Origin: Flavobacteriaceae bacterium UJ101
GTDB taxonomy: Bacteria > Bacteroidota > Bacteroidia > Flavobacteriales > UJ101
Assembly: GCA_001880285.1 (NCBI GenBank)
Contig: CP016269.1
Location: 1,932,501 to 1,996,500, forward strand
Direction of reading: 5' to 3'
Length of the DNA stretch: 64,000 nt
Each line of letters begins with the position of its first letter. Position 1 is the stretch's first letter. This document shows, in pieces, positions 9,091-14,676 of this stretch. Position numbers and translations under genes: made by a program. The notes below the pieces were generated by a model. That model made no database searches, was not told the origin of the DNA, and saw only the letters and a program-made list of their open reading frames with translations.

Positions 9091-9125
9091 AAAATCCTAA
9101 TCTTAATTGATTAGGATTTTCTTTT
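9091..9125. terminator. Bidirectional terminator between accC and the metal repressor
   Basis: A perfect 12-bp stem, AAAATCCTAATC (9091-9102) with GATTAGGATTTT (9109-9120), has a TTAATT loop and T-runs on both strands. It serves accC (+) and the convergent dtxR-family gene (-). Confidence 0.85.
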
Positions 9126-9814
9126 TATTTTGAAATTAATTCTACAAAAACATTTTCTGCAAATTTCTGAGAAACGGTTTCTACTTTCCCATCGAAGGCA
9201 ATTTGTAGTGTGTGATCAAATTTAAAAACATCTTGAACTGTAATTTCTGAACTTAAGATTAATCCTAGTTTAGATACATATTGTAAAAAAGCGATGGAAT
9301 TATCATTTACAGCTACTATTCTACAAGTGTCATGTATCTGTAATTCGGAGAGTTTTAATTTTTTTAGCGTTGCATAATCTCCATCTTGCCCAGGAATAAT
9401 ATCACCATGAGGATCTTTTTTAGGATATCCCATAAAGCGATCCAATTCATCAATTAATTTTTGAGATTTCACATGTTCTAATTGTTCTGCCACTTCATGA
9501 ACTTCGTCCCATGTAAAATTCATGTATTTATATAAAAAAGTTTCCCAAAGACGGTGTTTACGAATAAGGTTTAATGCAATGGCTCTTCCTTCAGTTGTTA
9601 ACTCTAATTTTCCGTAGCGCTCACTTAAAACCCATTGTTTGCTCTTCAATTTTTTAACCATATTATTTACCGAAGCTGGAGATAAAGATAAAAAATCGGC
9701 TAATTGATTGTTCCCAACCTTGTTGTTTAAGTCGCTAGAAGTAAGATGAAATAAGGCTTTTAAATAATCTTCTTCACTTTTTGTTATGTTTGTAGTATTT
9801 AATTTGTTAGTCAT
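9125..9814 (-). CDS. DtxR/MntR-family metal-dependent transcriptional repressor
   Basis: A 229-aa metalloregulator. It has an N-terminal winged helix (about 10-80; LADFLSLSPASVNNMVKKL is the recognition region), a metal-binding/dimerisation domain (about 81-150) and a C-terminal SH3/FeoA-like domain (about 155-229). Candidate ligands are D16, H87, E110, E113 and H114, resembling the MntR set. An in-frame start 60 nt further upstream exists, but it would lie close to the gene's own -7 element, so I chose 9814, giving MTNKLNTTNITKSEEDY. It diverges from the transporter genes and very likely represses them when metal is plentiful; Mn versus Fe specificity is inferred. Confidence 0.9.
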   Translation of the reverse strand: MTNKLNTTNITKSEEDYLKALFHLTSSDLNNKVGNNQLADFLSLSPASVNNMVKKLKSKQWVLSERYGKLELTTEGRAIALNLIRKHRLWETFLYKYMNFTWDEVHEVAEQLEHVKSQKLIDELDRFMGYPKKDPHGDIIPGQDGDYATLKKLKLSELQIHDTCRIVAVNDNSIAFLQYVSKLGLILSSEITVQDVFKFDHTLQIAFDGKVETVSQKFAENVFVELISK

Positions 9815-9834
9815 AACTAACTTTATTATTTTTG
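9803..9834 (+). promoter_or_regulatory. Promoter and putative metal-repressor operator of the ABC-transporter operon
   Basis: TTTG (9803-9806), a 20-nt spacer and TATTTTTG (9827-9834) form an excellent Bacteroidota promoter. The spacer is occupied by the dyad GTTAGT-CATA-ACTAAC (9806-9821), a perfect 6-bp inverted repeat. The same dyad covers the start codon of the divergent repressor gene (9812-9814). Its symmetry and position suit a DtxR/MntR-type operator; that the adjacent repressor binds it is inferred. Confidence 0.7.
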
Positions 9835-9878: not shown

Positions 9879-10670
9879 ATGAGAACTCACTTGGTGAAAG
9901 GTTTATTAATTAGCGTATCAATGTTTTCTATGTATGTAAAAGGACAGGAATATGAGGGATATGGAACTATCATTACAGATCGTCCAGATCAGACGGAATC
10001 TCCTAGTATAGTACCAAAAGGATTTCTTCAAGTAGAAACAGGAGCTTTTTATACGGAAAATGAAGAAGAAGGAGTAAAAAATGAAATCATGACTTATAAT
10101 ACAACGTTGTTGCGTTATGGGATCTCGAAAAATATGGAGTTAAGGCTGGGATTAAATTATGATGAAGATAAAACGAAGTTTAATGGAAGAGAAATAGCGA
10201 AGTCAAGTGGCTTTTCTCCATTGTACGCAGGTTTTAAAATACATGTAGTAGAAGAAAAAGGAATTGTACCACAAATTGGTTTCTTAGGAGGACTAATCCT
10301 TCCTTTTACAGCAGCAGAAGCTTTTAAACCTGAAAAAACAGGATTTACAGGACGTTTTGCATTTACTCATACGCTAAGTGATCGATCTAGTTTATCGTAT
10401 AATTTAGGAGCAGAATGGAATGGAGATGAGACAGGAGCAACCTATCAATATACAGCGGTTTATGGGTATAGTTTTACAGATAAATGGGGTGGATTTGTTG
10501 AAGTGTATGGAGATCTACCAGAAGATAGAACAGCTACTCATTATTGGGATTGTGGTGTAACCTATCTTTTAAAAGATAATATACAATTGGATGTTTCGGG
10601 TGGAACTGGATTTGGAAATGAACAAAATGTATATATAAGTGGAGGTGTAAGTTTTAGATTACCAAAATAA
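9879..10670 (+). CDS. Outer-membrane beta-barrel protein (phenol-degradation MetA-like family), first gene of the metal-uptake operon
   Basis: A 263-aa predicted outer-membrane protein with an N-terminal signal peptide (VKGLLISVSMFSMYVKGQ) and then ITDRPDQTESPSIVPKGFLQVETG. That opening is typical of the barrel family often annotated as MetA-pathway phenol degradation or simply 'transporter'. Alternating hydrophobic/polar strands rich in Tyr, Phe and Gly run to the C-terminal ISGGVSFRL. I chose 9879 because earlier in-frame starts overlap the promoter. It lies 7 bp before the substrate-binding protein gene and under the putative metal operator, so a role as an outer-membrane metal channel is plausible but inferred. 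Confidence 0.8.
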   Translation: MRTHLVKGLLISVSMFSMYVKGQEYEGYGTIITDRPDQTESPSIVPKGFLQVETGAFYTENEEEGVKNEIMTYNTTLLRYGISKNMELRLGLNYDEDKTKFNGREIAKSSGFSPLYAGFKIHVVEEKGIVPQIGFLGGLILPFTAAEAFKPEKTGFTGRFAFTHTLSDRSSLSYNLGAEWNGDETGATYQYTAVYGYSFTDKWGGFVEVYGDLPEDRTATHYWDCGVTYLLKDNIQLDVSGGTGFGNEQNVYISGGVSFRLPK

Positions 10671-10677
10671 TAAAAAG

Positions 10678-11592
10678 ATGAAAAAGTATATTCTATTAGG
10701 AGTAATGAGTTTATTTTTAGCAAGTTGTCAAAATAAGCAGCAATCAAATTCAGGGAAATTGAACGTCGTAACGACGACAACTATGTTAACTGATTTAGTA
10801 AAAAATATAGGAGGTGATGTTATTTCTGTTGAAGGATTGATGGGAAGTGGAGTAGATCCACATTTGTATAAAGCAAGTGAAGGGGATGTTACCAAATTAT
10901 TTAATGCAGATGTTGTATTTTACAACGGATTGCATTTAGAAGGGAAATTGGAAGATGTTTTTGAAAAAATGAAACATCAAAACAAAATAACCATTCCGGT
11001 AAGTGATACAATCAATAAAAAAGAATTAATTTCTTCAGAGGCATTTGCTTCAAATTATGATCCACATATTTGGTTTAACATTGAAAATTGGAAACAAATT
11101 ACACAATATGTAGTTAATCAATTGAAAAAAGAAGATCCTAAGAATGCTTCTGTTTTTGAAGAAAATGGTAAGAAATACTTAAAAAAATTAGAAGAATTAG
11201 AGGGAGAGATTCGAACAGAGATTAATAAATTACCAGAAGAACAACGTATTTTAGTTACAGCGCATGATGCCTTTAATTATTTTGGGAAAGCATATCATTT
11301 TAATGTTGTAGGTTTGCAAGGTTTATCAACGGCCACAGAAGCAGGGGTTCGTGATGTACAAAAATTATCAGACTTTATTATAAAAAATAAGGTGAAAGCC
11401 ATTTTTGTAGAAAGTTCAGTTCCTAAAAGAACAATAGAAGCATTGCAAAAAGCAGTTGAATCAAAAGGGAATAAAGTAGCTATAGGAGGAACTTTATATT
11501 CAGATGCTTTAGGAGATTCAGGTACTATTGAAGGGACGTATTTAGGAATGTATCGATATAACACTAAAACAATTGTAGAGGCATTAAAATAA
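10678..11592 (+). CDS. Manganese/zinc-type ABC transporter substrate-binding lipoprotein
   Basis: A cluster A-I (ZnuA/TroA/PsaA-like) metal-binding protein of 304 aa. The lipobox LFLASC puts the lipidated cysteine at C17, so it is anchored facing the periplasm. Candidate metal ligands are H62 (VDPHLYK), H130 (YDPHIWF), E245 (VESSVP) and D276 (LYSDAL). This His-His-Glu-Asp set, and the lack of the His-rich loop seen in ZnuA, favour manganese over zinc. It is second in the five-gene operon after the barrel gene and is followed 30 bp later by the ATPase. Confidence 0.92.
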   Translation: MKKYILLGVMSLFLASCQNKQQSNSGKLNVVTTTTMLTDLVKNIGGDVISVEGLMGSGVDPHLYKASEGDVTKLFNADVVFYNGLHLEGKLEDVFEKMKHQNKITIPVSDTINKKELISSEAFASNYDPHIWFNIENWKQITQYVVNQLKKEDPKNASVFEENGKKYLKKLEELEGEIRTEINKLPEEQRILVTAHDAFNYFGKAYHFNVVGLQGLSTATEAGVRDVQKLSDFIIKNKVKAIFVESSVPKRTIEALQKAVESKGNKVAIGGTLYSDALGDSGTIEGTYLGMYRYNTKTIVEALK

Positions 11593-11622: not shown

Positions 11623-12363
11623 ATGACTCAAGAAAAAATAGCCATACAAGTAGATGATTTAACTGTTGCGTATAAATACAAACCTGTTTTATGGGATATT
11701 GATTTGAGAATTCCTGAAGGTGTGTTGATGGCCATTGTAGGACCAAACGGGGCAGGAAAATCCACTTTGATTAAATCTATATTAGGTATTATAACACCTA
11801 TTGCAGGTAGTGTGAAAATATACGATAAATCGTATAAAGAACAGCGAAAGTTAGTAGCTTACGTTCCACAAAAGGGAAGTGTTGATTGGGATTTTCCTAC
11901 AACCGCTTTAGATGTAGTTATGATGGGTACATATGGTTCTTTAGGGTGGATTAAAAGACCGGGTCAAAAAGAGAAAAAAATAGCATTGGAAGCATTAGAA
12001 AAAGTAGGAATGTTACCTTTCAAGAATAGACAAATTAGTCAATTGTCAGGAGGACAGCAACAGCGTATTTTTTTAGCAAGAGCCTTGGTGCAAAATGCTT
12101 CAATCTACTTTATGGATGAGCCTTTTCAAGGAGTTGATGCTACTACAGAAAAAGCTATAATTAACATTTTAAAAGAATTACGTAAAGCTGGGAAAACAGT
12201 AATTGTTGTACATCATGATTTACAAACAGTGCCTGAATACTTTGATTGGGTTACCTTTTTGAATGTTAAAAAAATAGCTACGGGACCTGTAGCGACTATT
12301 TTTAATGATGATAATTTAACCAAAACCTATGGTATTAATTATAAGGTGAGTATCCAACAATAA
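11623..12363 (+). CDS. Metal ABC transporter ATP-binding protein
   Basis: The 246-aa cytoplasmic ATPase of the metal importer. It has Walker [10 protein letters not shown], the Q-loop in [13 protein letters not shown], the ABC signature LSGGQQQR, Walker B SIYFMDEP and the switch histidine in VVHHDL. The VDWDFP segment after the Q-loop is typical of the Mn/Zn/Fe chelate (MntB/TroB/ZnuC) branch. It lies between the substrate-binding protein and two permeases with short gaps, so the operon is complete. Confidence 0.94.
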
Positions 12364-12392: not shown

Positions 12393-13523
12393 ATGTCCAT
12401 AACCGATTATATAGAATTAATTTTTACCGATTATACTTTACGGACGATAACATTAGGAACAGCTGTGTTAGGAGCCATTTGTGGAATGTTAGGAAGTTTT
12501 GCTGTATTGCGTAAACAAAGCTTATTAGGTGATGCTATTTCCCATGCAGCATTACCAGGTATAGCCATTGCTTTTTTAGTTACAGGAACCAAAAATGGAA
12601 ATGTATTATTGGTAGGTGCTTTAATTAGTGGCTTAGTAGGCGCCTTTTGGATTCGTGGAATTACACGAAATACCCATCTTAAATCGGATACCGCTTTAGG
12701 GATTATTTTGTCTGTGTTTTTTGGGTTTGGGATGTTACTCTTAACGTTTATTCAAAAACAACCCAATGCCAATCAAGCAGGATTGGATAAATATCTTTTT
12801 GGACAAGCAGCAACACTGATGGAAAAAGATGTGATGATGATGAGTATTGTCATGGGAATATGTTTGATTGTTCTTTTTGTTTTTTGGAAAGAATTTAAAC
12901 TATTGCTTTTTGATGCTGATTATACCAAAACATTAGGCTTTAATATTCAATTTTTAGATATTTTAATTACGTCATTTATTGTGTTGGCTATTGTATTAGG
13001 TTTACAAACAGTAGGTGTCGTGTTAATGAGTGCGATGTTATTAGCTCCGGCAGCAGCAGCTCGACAATGGACGAATAGCTTAGGGATGATGGTTTTTCTA
13101 GCAGCTATTTTTGGTGCTTTTTCAGGTGTTTTTGGAACATGGATTAGTGCAAGTTCCAATCATCTATCAACAGGGCCTGTAATCGTTTTAGTAGCATCTG
13201 TTTTTGTATTGTTTTCCTTTGTTTTTTCACCGAGTAGAGGTTTATTATTTAGAGAGATTCGCTTTATTCAAAATCGTAATGATTTAGAATTACATAAAAC
13301 GTTAACCTTTATGTATCATATAGCAATGGATCATGAAAATCGATCGCATCCACATGCTATAAAAATTTTAAATAATTTTCATGGATTTTCAAGAAAATCA
13401 TTAAGAAAATTAGAAAATAAAGATTGGGTGAAAGTAGAAGGCCAAATGTGGTCTCTAACGGAAAAAGGATATTATGAAGCAGAAAATTTATATAATCAAT
13501 TAAATCAAAACCAAGATGACTAA
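12393..13523 (+). CDS. Metal ABC transporter permease with C-terminal winged-helix-like tail
   Basis: A 376-aa ABC-3 family (ZnuB/TroC-like) permease. The first 285 or so residues contain about eight to nine hydrophobic segments with the family motifs LGDAISHAALPGIAIAF and LMSAMLLAPAAAARQW. Beyond the usual end, residues about 292-376 form a soluble tail (SRKSLRKLENKDWVKVEG, then WSLTEKGYYEAENL). This looks like the helix-turn-helix and wing of DtxR-type regulators and resembles the neighbouring repressor's N-terminus. It overlaps the next permease gene by 8 bp, suggesting translational coupling. Confidence 0.9.
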   Translation: MSITDYIELIFTDYTLRTITLGTAVLGAICGMLGSFAVLRKQSLLGDAISHAALPGIAIAFLVTGTKNGNVLLVGALISGLVGAFWIRGITRNTHLKSDTALGIILSVFFGFGMLLLTFIQKQPNANQAGLDKYLFGQAATLMEKDVMMMSIVMGICLIVLFVFWKEFKLLLFDADYTKTLGFNIQFLDILITSFIVLAIVLGLQTVGVVLMSAMLLAPAAAARQWTNSLGMMVFLAAIFGAFSGVFGTWISASSNHLSTGPVIVLVASVFVLFSFVFSPSRGLLFREIRFIQNRNDLELHKTLTFMYHIAMDHENRSHPHAIKILNNFHGFSRKSLRKLENKDWVKVEGQMWSLTEKGYYEAENLYNQLNQNQDD

Positions 13524-14676
13524 TGCTCAAATTGAAATACAATTAGTGGCTAGTTTAGTAGCAATTGCTTGTGCTATACCAGGAACTTTCTTGGTTTTAA
13601 GAAAAATGGCATTAATTAGTGATGCGATTAGTCATTCTATTTTACCAGGAATTGTAATAGGTTTTTTTCTAACTCATGATTTAAATTCTCCATGGCTTAT
13701 TATTTTTGCGGCTCTTTTTGGAGTCATAACTGTAGTATTGGTTGAGTTTATTCAAAAAACAGGGTTAGTTAAGGAAGATACGGCTATAGGATTGGTTTTT
13801 CCTGCTTTATTTAGTATTGGGGTTATTATGATTGCTAAAAATGCCAATGATGTTCATTTAGATGTAGATGCTGTTCTATTGGGAGAATTGGCCTTTACAC
13901 CTTTTGATCGATTGATTATGAATGAAGTAGATTTAGGACCTAAATCGTTATGGGTTGTAGGAAGTATTTTAATGATGACACTTATTTTATTAATTACGTT
14001 TTTTAAAGAATTGAAACTAAGCACATTTGATGTTGGTTTATCTTCTGCTTTAGGTTTTTCACCTGTAGTGATTCATTATGGTTTGATGACCGTGGCTTCT
14101 GTAACAACTGTTGGAGCATTTGATTCTGTTGGAGCTATTTTAGTGGTTGCTTTAATGATTGCACCTGCTGCAACGGCTTATTTGTTAACAGATAATTTGA
14201 AGAAAATGATTGTTTTAGCAATACTTTTTGGAGTATTTTCTGCTATTTCAGGTTATTGGATGGCCCATTTTTTAGATGCTTCCATTGCAGGATCTATGAC
14301 TACCGTTTTAGGAATCCTTTTTTTACTGGTATATTTATTGGCTCCCAATAGAGGACTATTTTCTGTTTTATACCGTCAAAAACAACAACGTATTGAAGTC
14401 TCGATGTTAACTTTTTTATTGCATTTATCTAATCATAATGAAGAAGAAGAACGGCATGTAAACCACTTAAGAGAACATATCAATTGGCAAAAGGTTCAAG
14501 CACAATCTGTATTAGATTTAGCATTAAAAAACAATATGATATCGATTGATAACGAGGTAGTTTCATTAACAAGAAAAGGAAAAGAATTTACAGCAGAAGC
14601 CATTGATTATATTTTAGATGATAAAAAAGCAGCTATTGAAACGATGAAATCACGATTCTTTTTATTTAGAGGTTAA
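13516..14676 (+). CDS. Second metal ABC transporter permease, also with a winged-helix-like tail
   Basis: A 386-aa ABC-3 family permease with the motifs LISDAISHSILPGIVIGF and VALMIAPAATAYLL; it presumably pairs with the preceding permease as a heterodimer. Residues about 288-386 form a second soluble tail. It runs through MLTFLLHLSNHNEEEERHV, QSVLDLALKNNMISIDN and VSLTRKGKEFTAEAI, again fitting a helix-rich segment followed by a wing and LTxKG motif. It ends the operon, its last 15 bp overlapping the convergent gene on the minus strand. No terminator was seen between them. Confidence 0.9.
   Translation: MTNAQIEIQLVASLVAIACAIPGTFLVLRKMALISDAISHSILPGIVIGFFLTHDLNSPWLIIFAALFGVITVVLVEFIQKTGLVKEDTAIGLVFPALFSIGVIMIAKNANDVHLDVDAVLLGELAFTPFDRLIMNEVDLGPKSLWVVGSILMMTLILLITFFKELKLSTFDVGLSSALGFSPVVIHYGLMTVASVTTVGAFDSVGAILVVALMIAPAATAYLLTDNLKKMIVLAILFGVFSAISGYWMAHFLDASIAGSMTTVLGILFLLVYLLAPNRGLFSVLYRQKQQRIEVSMLTFLLHLSNHNEEEERHVNHLREHINWQKVQAQSVLDLALKNNMISIDNEVVSLTRKGKEFTAEAIDYILDDKKAAIETMKSRFFLFRG

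Follow-up and report, generated by a model that had tools for sequence, protein, structure and literature searches.

Few proteins are known to pass Mn2+ and other free divalent ions through the outer membrane, and to our knowledge the passage of metal ions across this membrane is largely unknown in the bacterial group studied here. MnoP is an OprB-like porin under Mur/Fur-family control. Outer-membrane passage of Mn has been described for MnoP in Bradyrhizobium, OmpU in Vibrio and MnoT in Burkholderia, in a review whose available text does not contain the word stem Bacteroid- (PMC9334652). In the flavobacterium Bizionia argentinensis, loss of MliR lowers the expression of metal ABC transporters as well as cellular Mn, Fe and Zn, and the accessible sections of that study do not mention the barrel considered below (PMC9478572). 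Among the COG4313 channels, Pput2725 (4RL8) has an N-terminus that fills the lumen of its 12-stranded barrel, and it passes ions only above 150 mV and also lets glycine through. Its authors favoured hydrophobic substrates and doubted a role for hydrophilic solutes, and the known or proposed substrates of the COG4313 channels are hydrophobic organic molecules, as stated in the accessible part of the report (PMC4493636). Among titles and abstract openings, chiefly those outside the subscription journals, no paper was found that links a PF13557/COG4313 protein to metal uptake.

We analyzed a 64,000-nucleotide stretch of the genome of Flavobacteriaceae bacterium UJ101 (hereafter the window), in which a gene encoding a PF13557-type barrel is followed by the genes of a metal ABC importer and preceded by a divergent repressor gene. 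The features of this locus, with the basis of each assignment in brackets, are as follows.

9125 to 9814, minus strand: DtxR/MntR-family metal-dependent repressor with a C-terminal FeoA domain, 229 aa (Pfam)
9803 to 9834, plus strand: putative promoter TTTG-N20-TATTTTTG (by eye)
9806 to 9821, no strand assigned: predicted palindromic DtxR/MntR-type operator GTTAGTCATAACTAAC (motif counts and position in relatives)
9879 to 10670, plus strand: PF13557/COG4313-type outer-membrane barrel, 263 aa (Pfam, AlphaFold2 and fold search)
10678 to 11592, plus strand: TroA-type metal-binding lipoprotein of a metal ABC importer (Pfam and structure-sequence alignment)
11623 to 12363, plus strand: ABC ATPase of the metal importer (Pfam)
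12393 to 13523, plus strand: ABC-3 permease with a C-terminal extension of ~100 aa (Pfam)
13516 to 14676, plus strand: second ABC-3 permease, also with a C-terminal extension (Pfam)

The frame of the barrel gene, as read in the window, runs on the plus strand from an ATG at 9879 to a stop codon ending at 10670, and in the ORF list it is also open from an upstream ATG at 9786. Barrel residue numbers (D34 and others) count from the ATG at 9879 and equal the numbering from the upstream ATG minus 31. The gene order described in an earlier note on this DNA was borne out by the ORFs and the Pfam matches, the barrel stop codon lying 7 bp before the ATG (10678) of the gene for the TroA-type binding protein. 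The barrel gene is divergent from that of the DtxR/MntR-type regulator (Fe_dep_repr_C, E 6.1e-30). The binding protein belongs to the ZnuA/TroA family (Pfam, E 1.9e-80), and its gene is followed on the same strand by those of the ABC ATPase and the two ABC-3 permeases. The extensions of these permeases resemble the regulator weakly at best (E 0.022); in one relative (L068, 5656-6918), the extension of the ABC-3 permease matches PF02742 (E 4.9e-24), a metal-binding domain of the DtxR type, which suggests a metal-sensing permease. A search for relatives of the window's binding protein among viral contigs found none.

The palindrome GTTAGTCATAACTAAC at 9806-9821 is a perfect GTTAG-N6-CTAAC, which overlaps the start codon of the repressor gene. 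It lies between TTTG (9803-9806) and TATTTTTG (9827-9834), putative promoter elements for the barrel gene that we take to be a Bacteroidota -33/-7 consensus pair. Within the window's own 3.07 Mb genome, GTTAG-N6-CTAAC occurs in 2 exact copies, the second within an M20 peptidase ORF, compared with 3 for the reversed control pattern, and the shorter TTAG-N6-CTAA gives 156 matches compared with 131 for its reversed control. The motif alone is therefore not beyond chance, and it is the conserved position that constitutes the evidence. Of 90 metal-linked loci, 58 carry TTAG-N6-CTAA upstream of the barrel or the regulator, whereas 50 dinucleotide shuffles gave 1.04 on average and 4 at most. Ten Nramp-barrel rows (9 distinct) without the motif at this position all carry it upstream of Nramp, and when wider regions were considered, in a count without shuffle control, TTAG-N6-CTAA or TTAAG-N4-CTTAA was present in 84 of the 90 loci. 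These 90 rows include the duplicate pairs L034/L116 and L072/L095, so that 88 loci are distinct, and 82 of these have a palindrome. The 10 loci with a regulator of the 'KPG' subtype, defined by KPG within the first 40 residues (L005, L071, L078, L086, L100, L102, L103, L105, L106 and L107), all have the TTAAG-N4-CTTAA form near the regulator or barrel in place of TTAG-N6-CTAA, and the other 80 loci all lack it; judged from these sequences, the operator form and the regulator subtype look to co-vary. As for unlinked barrels, TTAG-N6-CTAA lies upstream of 8 of 58 (7 distinct), leaving 50 without it, and it was found upstream of 0 of 9 control barrels and 0 of 12 MscS/MgtE-linked barrels. Many relatives in which the genes diverge have a TAnnTTTG box within the palindrome, and a complete TTTG-N18-22-TAnnTTTG overlapping the motif was present in only 7 of 77 cases. 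The operon promoter thus carries a palindrome conserved in relatives, as in an MntR/DtxR regulon.

A single-protein search of 296 genomes of the window's order detected a barrel match in 68 at E<=1e-3; the barrel is therefore not obligatory, 228 genomes being without a match at this threshold. In the window's class, 70 of 295 genomes match the profile at 1e-10, and neighborhoods were fetched for part of the 68 and part of the 70 genomes. The order-level count covers all but one (G192) of the 34 genomes that match at E<=1e-15. Among these 33, the barrel neighbors a Tro-type ABC importer in 15, Nramp in 5, ZIP in 3 and MgtE in 1, while an importer is absent within two ORFs in genomes with DtxR only (2) or with neither importer nor MntR (7). 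The Nramp, ZIP, FeoB and MgtE identity of representative neighbors was confirmed by Pfam. In the Nramp loci, the barrel gene comes immediately after Nramp or overlaps it, and in the g61 group it lies between the two permease genes. In G162, which is one of the 15 genomes counted with Tro, the barrel gene (L071, 6976-7781) is broken by stops in an MntR-Tro locus that is otherwise kept, with extra ORFs between the ATPase and permease genes. MgtE was set aside as a partner type, because those barrels fall in another clade with mostly MscS neighbors.

A profile of 22 barrels (alignment A1; L040 left out) retrieved 476 relatives among species genomes, and the best 80 were kept as a named set, which was picked by similarity to the window and is thus biased towards its kin. 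With neighbors labelled by BLAST at 1e-6 using a fixed set of query proteins, 63 of these best 80 have an importer within two ORFs (Tro 33, Nramp 15, ZIP 14 and FeoB 1) and 56 a DtxR/MntR regulator, with DtxR only in 1 and none in 16. Tro genes or, three ORFs off, Nramp genes were also found near the barrel in the Ignavibacteria loci L122, L128 and L138. At L038 (2658-5036), L040 (1-2237) and L101, a TonB-dependent receptor gene adjoins the DtxR regulator, possibly as a second outer-membrane route.

As a control set, we inspected 22 further PF13557 places in 23 barrel-carrying genomes (16 places, 5 weak places and G006:C23, which is L058), and nine of them were the controls for the motif and residue comparisons. 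Near 0 of the 22 was there MntR or an importer of the Tro, Nramp, ZIP or FeoB families, and on this ground metal linkage was rejected as a generic PF13557 pattern. Exceptions of other kinds were G006:C23, which is beside MgtE, and L168, with a generic ABC ATPase ~4 kb away; L166 and L213 have a TonB-receptor match nearby. The two PF13557 paralogues in the window's own genome have no Tro, Nramp, ZIP, FeoB or MntR neighbor.

Phylogenetic analysis was performed on 165 rows by a quick method, which gave several long branches. The tree leaves out L071, in which the barrel is broken, the short L151, L034 and L072, which duplicate L116 and L095, and 7 control loci with barrels that escaped the 22-barrel profile A1, and L141/L175 and L143/L179 are also identical pairs. 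The window's clade (SH-aLRT 100) comprises 43 rows, 34 with Tro, 6 with ZIP, 1 with FeoB, 1 with MntR/DtxR only at a contig edge, and 1 (L111) with none, where the barrel is followed by an integrase-type transposase ORF. Neighbor type changes 32 times on the tree, compared with 86 times when the labels were shuffled. Both the ZIP rows and the single FeoB row branch from within Tro rows, indicating that the importer was exchanged while the barrel and the regulator were retained, and related clades pair the barrel with Nramp or ZIP.

The 40 best places outside the order comprise 3 with Nramp and DtxR, 1 with Tro and DtxR, 6 with MscS and 30 with none, and with 4 of 40 metal-linked the wider family is mostly not metal-linked. 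Wide occurrence of the barrel without a metal transporter, which the earlier note had held to count against its proposal, was thus found beyond the order, where 36 of the 40 best places have no Mn/Zn/Fe importer within two ORFs, but not in the window's clade, where 42 of the 43 rows have retained MntR or a metal importer as a neighbor. In another clade of the family, the barrel lies between MgtE and MscS-type genes at L056 (5486-9355, by Pfam) and at L051, L061 and L062 (by BLAST), and beside MscS with MgtE absent within two ORFs at L187, L190 and L204. Other relatives lie beside genes for GAF-domain proteins (L143, 4859-8612; L117, 7001-9315) or CheR methyltransferases (L143; L144, 7001-8694). 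The ~810-aa neighbor at L197 (4111-6540) is a penicillin amidase, and that at L209 (2616-5057), in the same barrel clade, is a TPR/SpoIIE protein. Barrels of L118, L147, L113 and L146, whose records are titled Bifidobacterium, Bdellovibrio, Rokubacteria and Kuenenia, group with Bacteroidota rows, and these records are probably mislabelled bins.

The barrel matches PF13557 (Phenol_MetA_deg) over positions 1-242 of 242 (E 2.8e-34; 119.7 bits, cut-off 22), which was the only family in a Pfam scan at E<=0.5, with no TonB plug or TonB_dep_Rec domain. A sequence search of solved structures gave weak matches, to designed repeat proteins and two others, so that relatives had to be sought by fold. For the AlphaFold2 model, 75 sequences were aligned, namely the window and 74 of the 80 named loci (L096, L111, L143 and L151 were left out for length, and L115 and L146 by hand). 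The model has a pLDDT of 92.1 and a pTM of 0.82, with a mean pLDDT of 74 for residues 31-40, and shows an N-terminal signal-like helix, a TDRPDQTES segment ahead of strand 1 and 13 strand segments by DSSP. Its top fold match is FapF (5O65, Z 24.1), followed by the COG4313 channel 4RL8 of Pseudomonas putida (Z 23.7) and, at Z ~19, KdgM and autotransporter barrels; superposition on 4rl8_C gave an rmsd of 2.4 over 222 residues, consistent with a 4RL8-like 12-stranded barrel. These data uphold the earlier prediction of an outer-membrane barrel.

The segment that matches the N-terminus of 4RL8 is TDRPDQTES. Residues D34, D37, T39 and E40 in this segment are conserved at 99% in 82 metal-linked rows with g61 set aside (80-100% in g61), at 56-81% in 57 unlinked rows and at 0-33% in 9 controls. 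In the same 82 metal-linked rows, His is enriched at positions 164 (93%) and 221 (89%), and position 138 is His in 93%; however, His164 and His221 are absent from g61 and position 138 is Gly in the window, so no His ligand is claimed.

The closest solved structures of the regulator are 5zr4 (a 'metal-dependent transcriptional regulator'), ScaR and SloR. On alignment, the regulator has Glu, like ScaR and SloR, at the position where DtxR has Cys. The Glu and the likeness to ScaR and SloR point to Mn. The binding protein aligned best to TroA (E 2.4e-81), with His/His/His/Asp at the positions that we take to be the TroA ligands. Sites of this type are known for Zn as well as Mn, and thus both metals are possible for the importer. 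The description of the operon as 'manganese-type' therefore suits the regulator, whereas the binding site fits Zn or Mn.

Other roles for the barrel were weighed against this evidence. The barrel may pass metal complexed with a small organic chelator, metallophore-like or citrate-like, from which the importer would pick up the metal in the periplasm. Its fold matches the COG4313 family, whose known or proposed substrates are organic according to the accessible part of the report (PMC4493636). However, the neighbor maps show no additional recurring gene among those labelled with the fixed query set, which could miss a metallophore gene, and the four partner importer families take free divalent ions as far as these families are known; we consider this role unlikely. 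It is also rather improbable that the barrel is a general porin for small solutes and small ions that is merely co-regulated, raising permeability in metal starvation without selectivity. The relatives beside MscS and MgtE outside the metal clades would fit a generic small-ion role, and Pput2725 passes glycine and, at high voltage, ions, as the available text describes (PMC4493636), but in the window's clade the barrel is strongly retained alongside metal importers and DtxR-type operators, which argues against such a porin, as does the weaker acidic N-terminal motif outside the metal-linked rows.

The rank of FapF as the top fold match and the GAF-domain and CheR genes adjoining other relatives would accord with a barrel that has a structural, secretory or sensing function in the envelope during metal stress and not one in uptake, but importer and regulator genes are the recurring neighbors in the window's clade, and we regard such a function as very unlikely. 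Least probable of all is a channel for the uptake of hydrophobic compounds that lies in the operon for other reasons: it is favored by the Pfam family name and by the view of the Pput2725 authors in the accessible text (PMC4493636), but metal genes recur beside the barrel in several clades, where neighbors are annotated in part and catabolic genes are possible.

Tro, Nramp, ZIP and FeoB importers take free divalent ions, with Mn2+ as the common denominator. Because these partners share free-divalent-ion uptake under an MntR-type switch, an entry pore used when Mn is short is the simplest reading of the barrel, and since the same metal switch is shared with several unrelated importers, the barrel is probably the outer-membrane metal door. 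The gene order, operator motif, conserved linkage, interchangeable importers and barrel fold, all computed here, suggest that the barrel is likely the TonB-independent outer-membrane entry component of an MntR-controlled uptake system for Mn2+-like divalent ions. The proposal of outer-membrane metal entry in the earlier note has thereby gained strong comparative support from the conserved operator, the MntR neighbor and four unrelated importer families that are interchangeable as partners, with metal conduction and the choice of metal being predictions.

In the proposed mechanism, Mn would act through repression: at low cytoplasmic Mn2+ the repressor would leave the operator between the two divergent genes, and the barrel and the TroABCD-type importer would then be made together from one promoter. 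The barrel would insert in the outer membrane as a ~12-stranded, TonB-independent channel, with the N-terminal TDRPDxTE segment in or near the lumen, where it may act as an acidic gate. Mn2+ as the presumed main substrate, and possibly Zn2+ or Fe2+, would diffuse through the barrel to the TroA-like lipoprotein for ABC import. More speculatively, and with considerable doubt, a COG4313-fold family in Bacteroidota and Ignavibacteria might have become a gated, TonB-independent outer-membrane Mn2+ channel whose TDRPDxTE gate in the lumen is metal-responsive and which works with whichever importer (Tro, Nramp, ZIP or FeoB) a lineage has; the sister clades beside MgtE and MscS might do likewise for other ions, making this a general cation-partner family.

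As a small protein retained under a DtxR-type operator through exchanges of its inner-membrane partner, the barrel is a concrete and testable single-gene candidate for metal passage. If the proposed role is true, a family thought to handle hydrophobic molecules would be widened to inorganic ions, and the 'phenol degradation' label of this PF13557 barrel would be misleading and could be corrected.

Compared with known systems, the predicted role of the barrel is akin to that of MnoP of Bradyrhizobium in the import of Mn across the outer membrane, as far as the available text of the review describes it (PMC9334652). MnoT and ZnuD likewise serve in outer-membrane uptake of Mn or Zn (for MnoT, the same available text, PMC9334652), but both are TonB-dependent, whereas the window barrel has 263 aa and no match to a TonB-receptor domain. 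FapF shares the fold of the barrel and, in the accessible part of its description, exports amyloid subunits, whereas the recurring neighbors of the window barrel are metal genes. With the COG4313/PF13557 channels Pput2725 (4RL8), SphA and TcpY, the barrel shares the family, the fold and an N-terminal segment ahead of strand 1. In contrast to these channels, it is partnered by MntR and divalent-metal importers, and its N-terminus carries TDRPDxTE.
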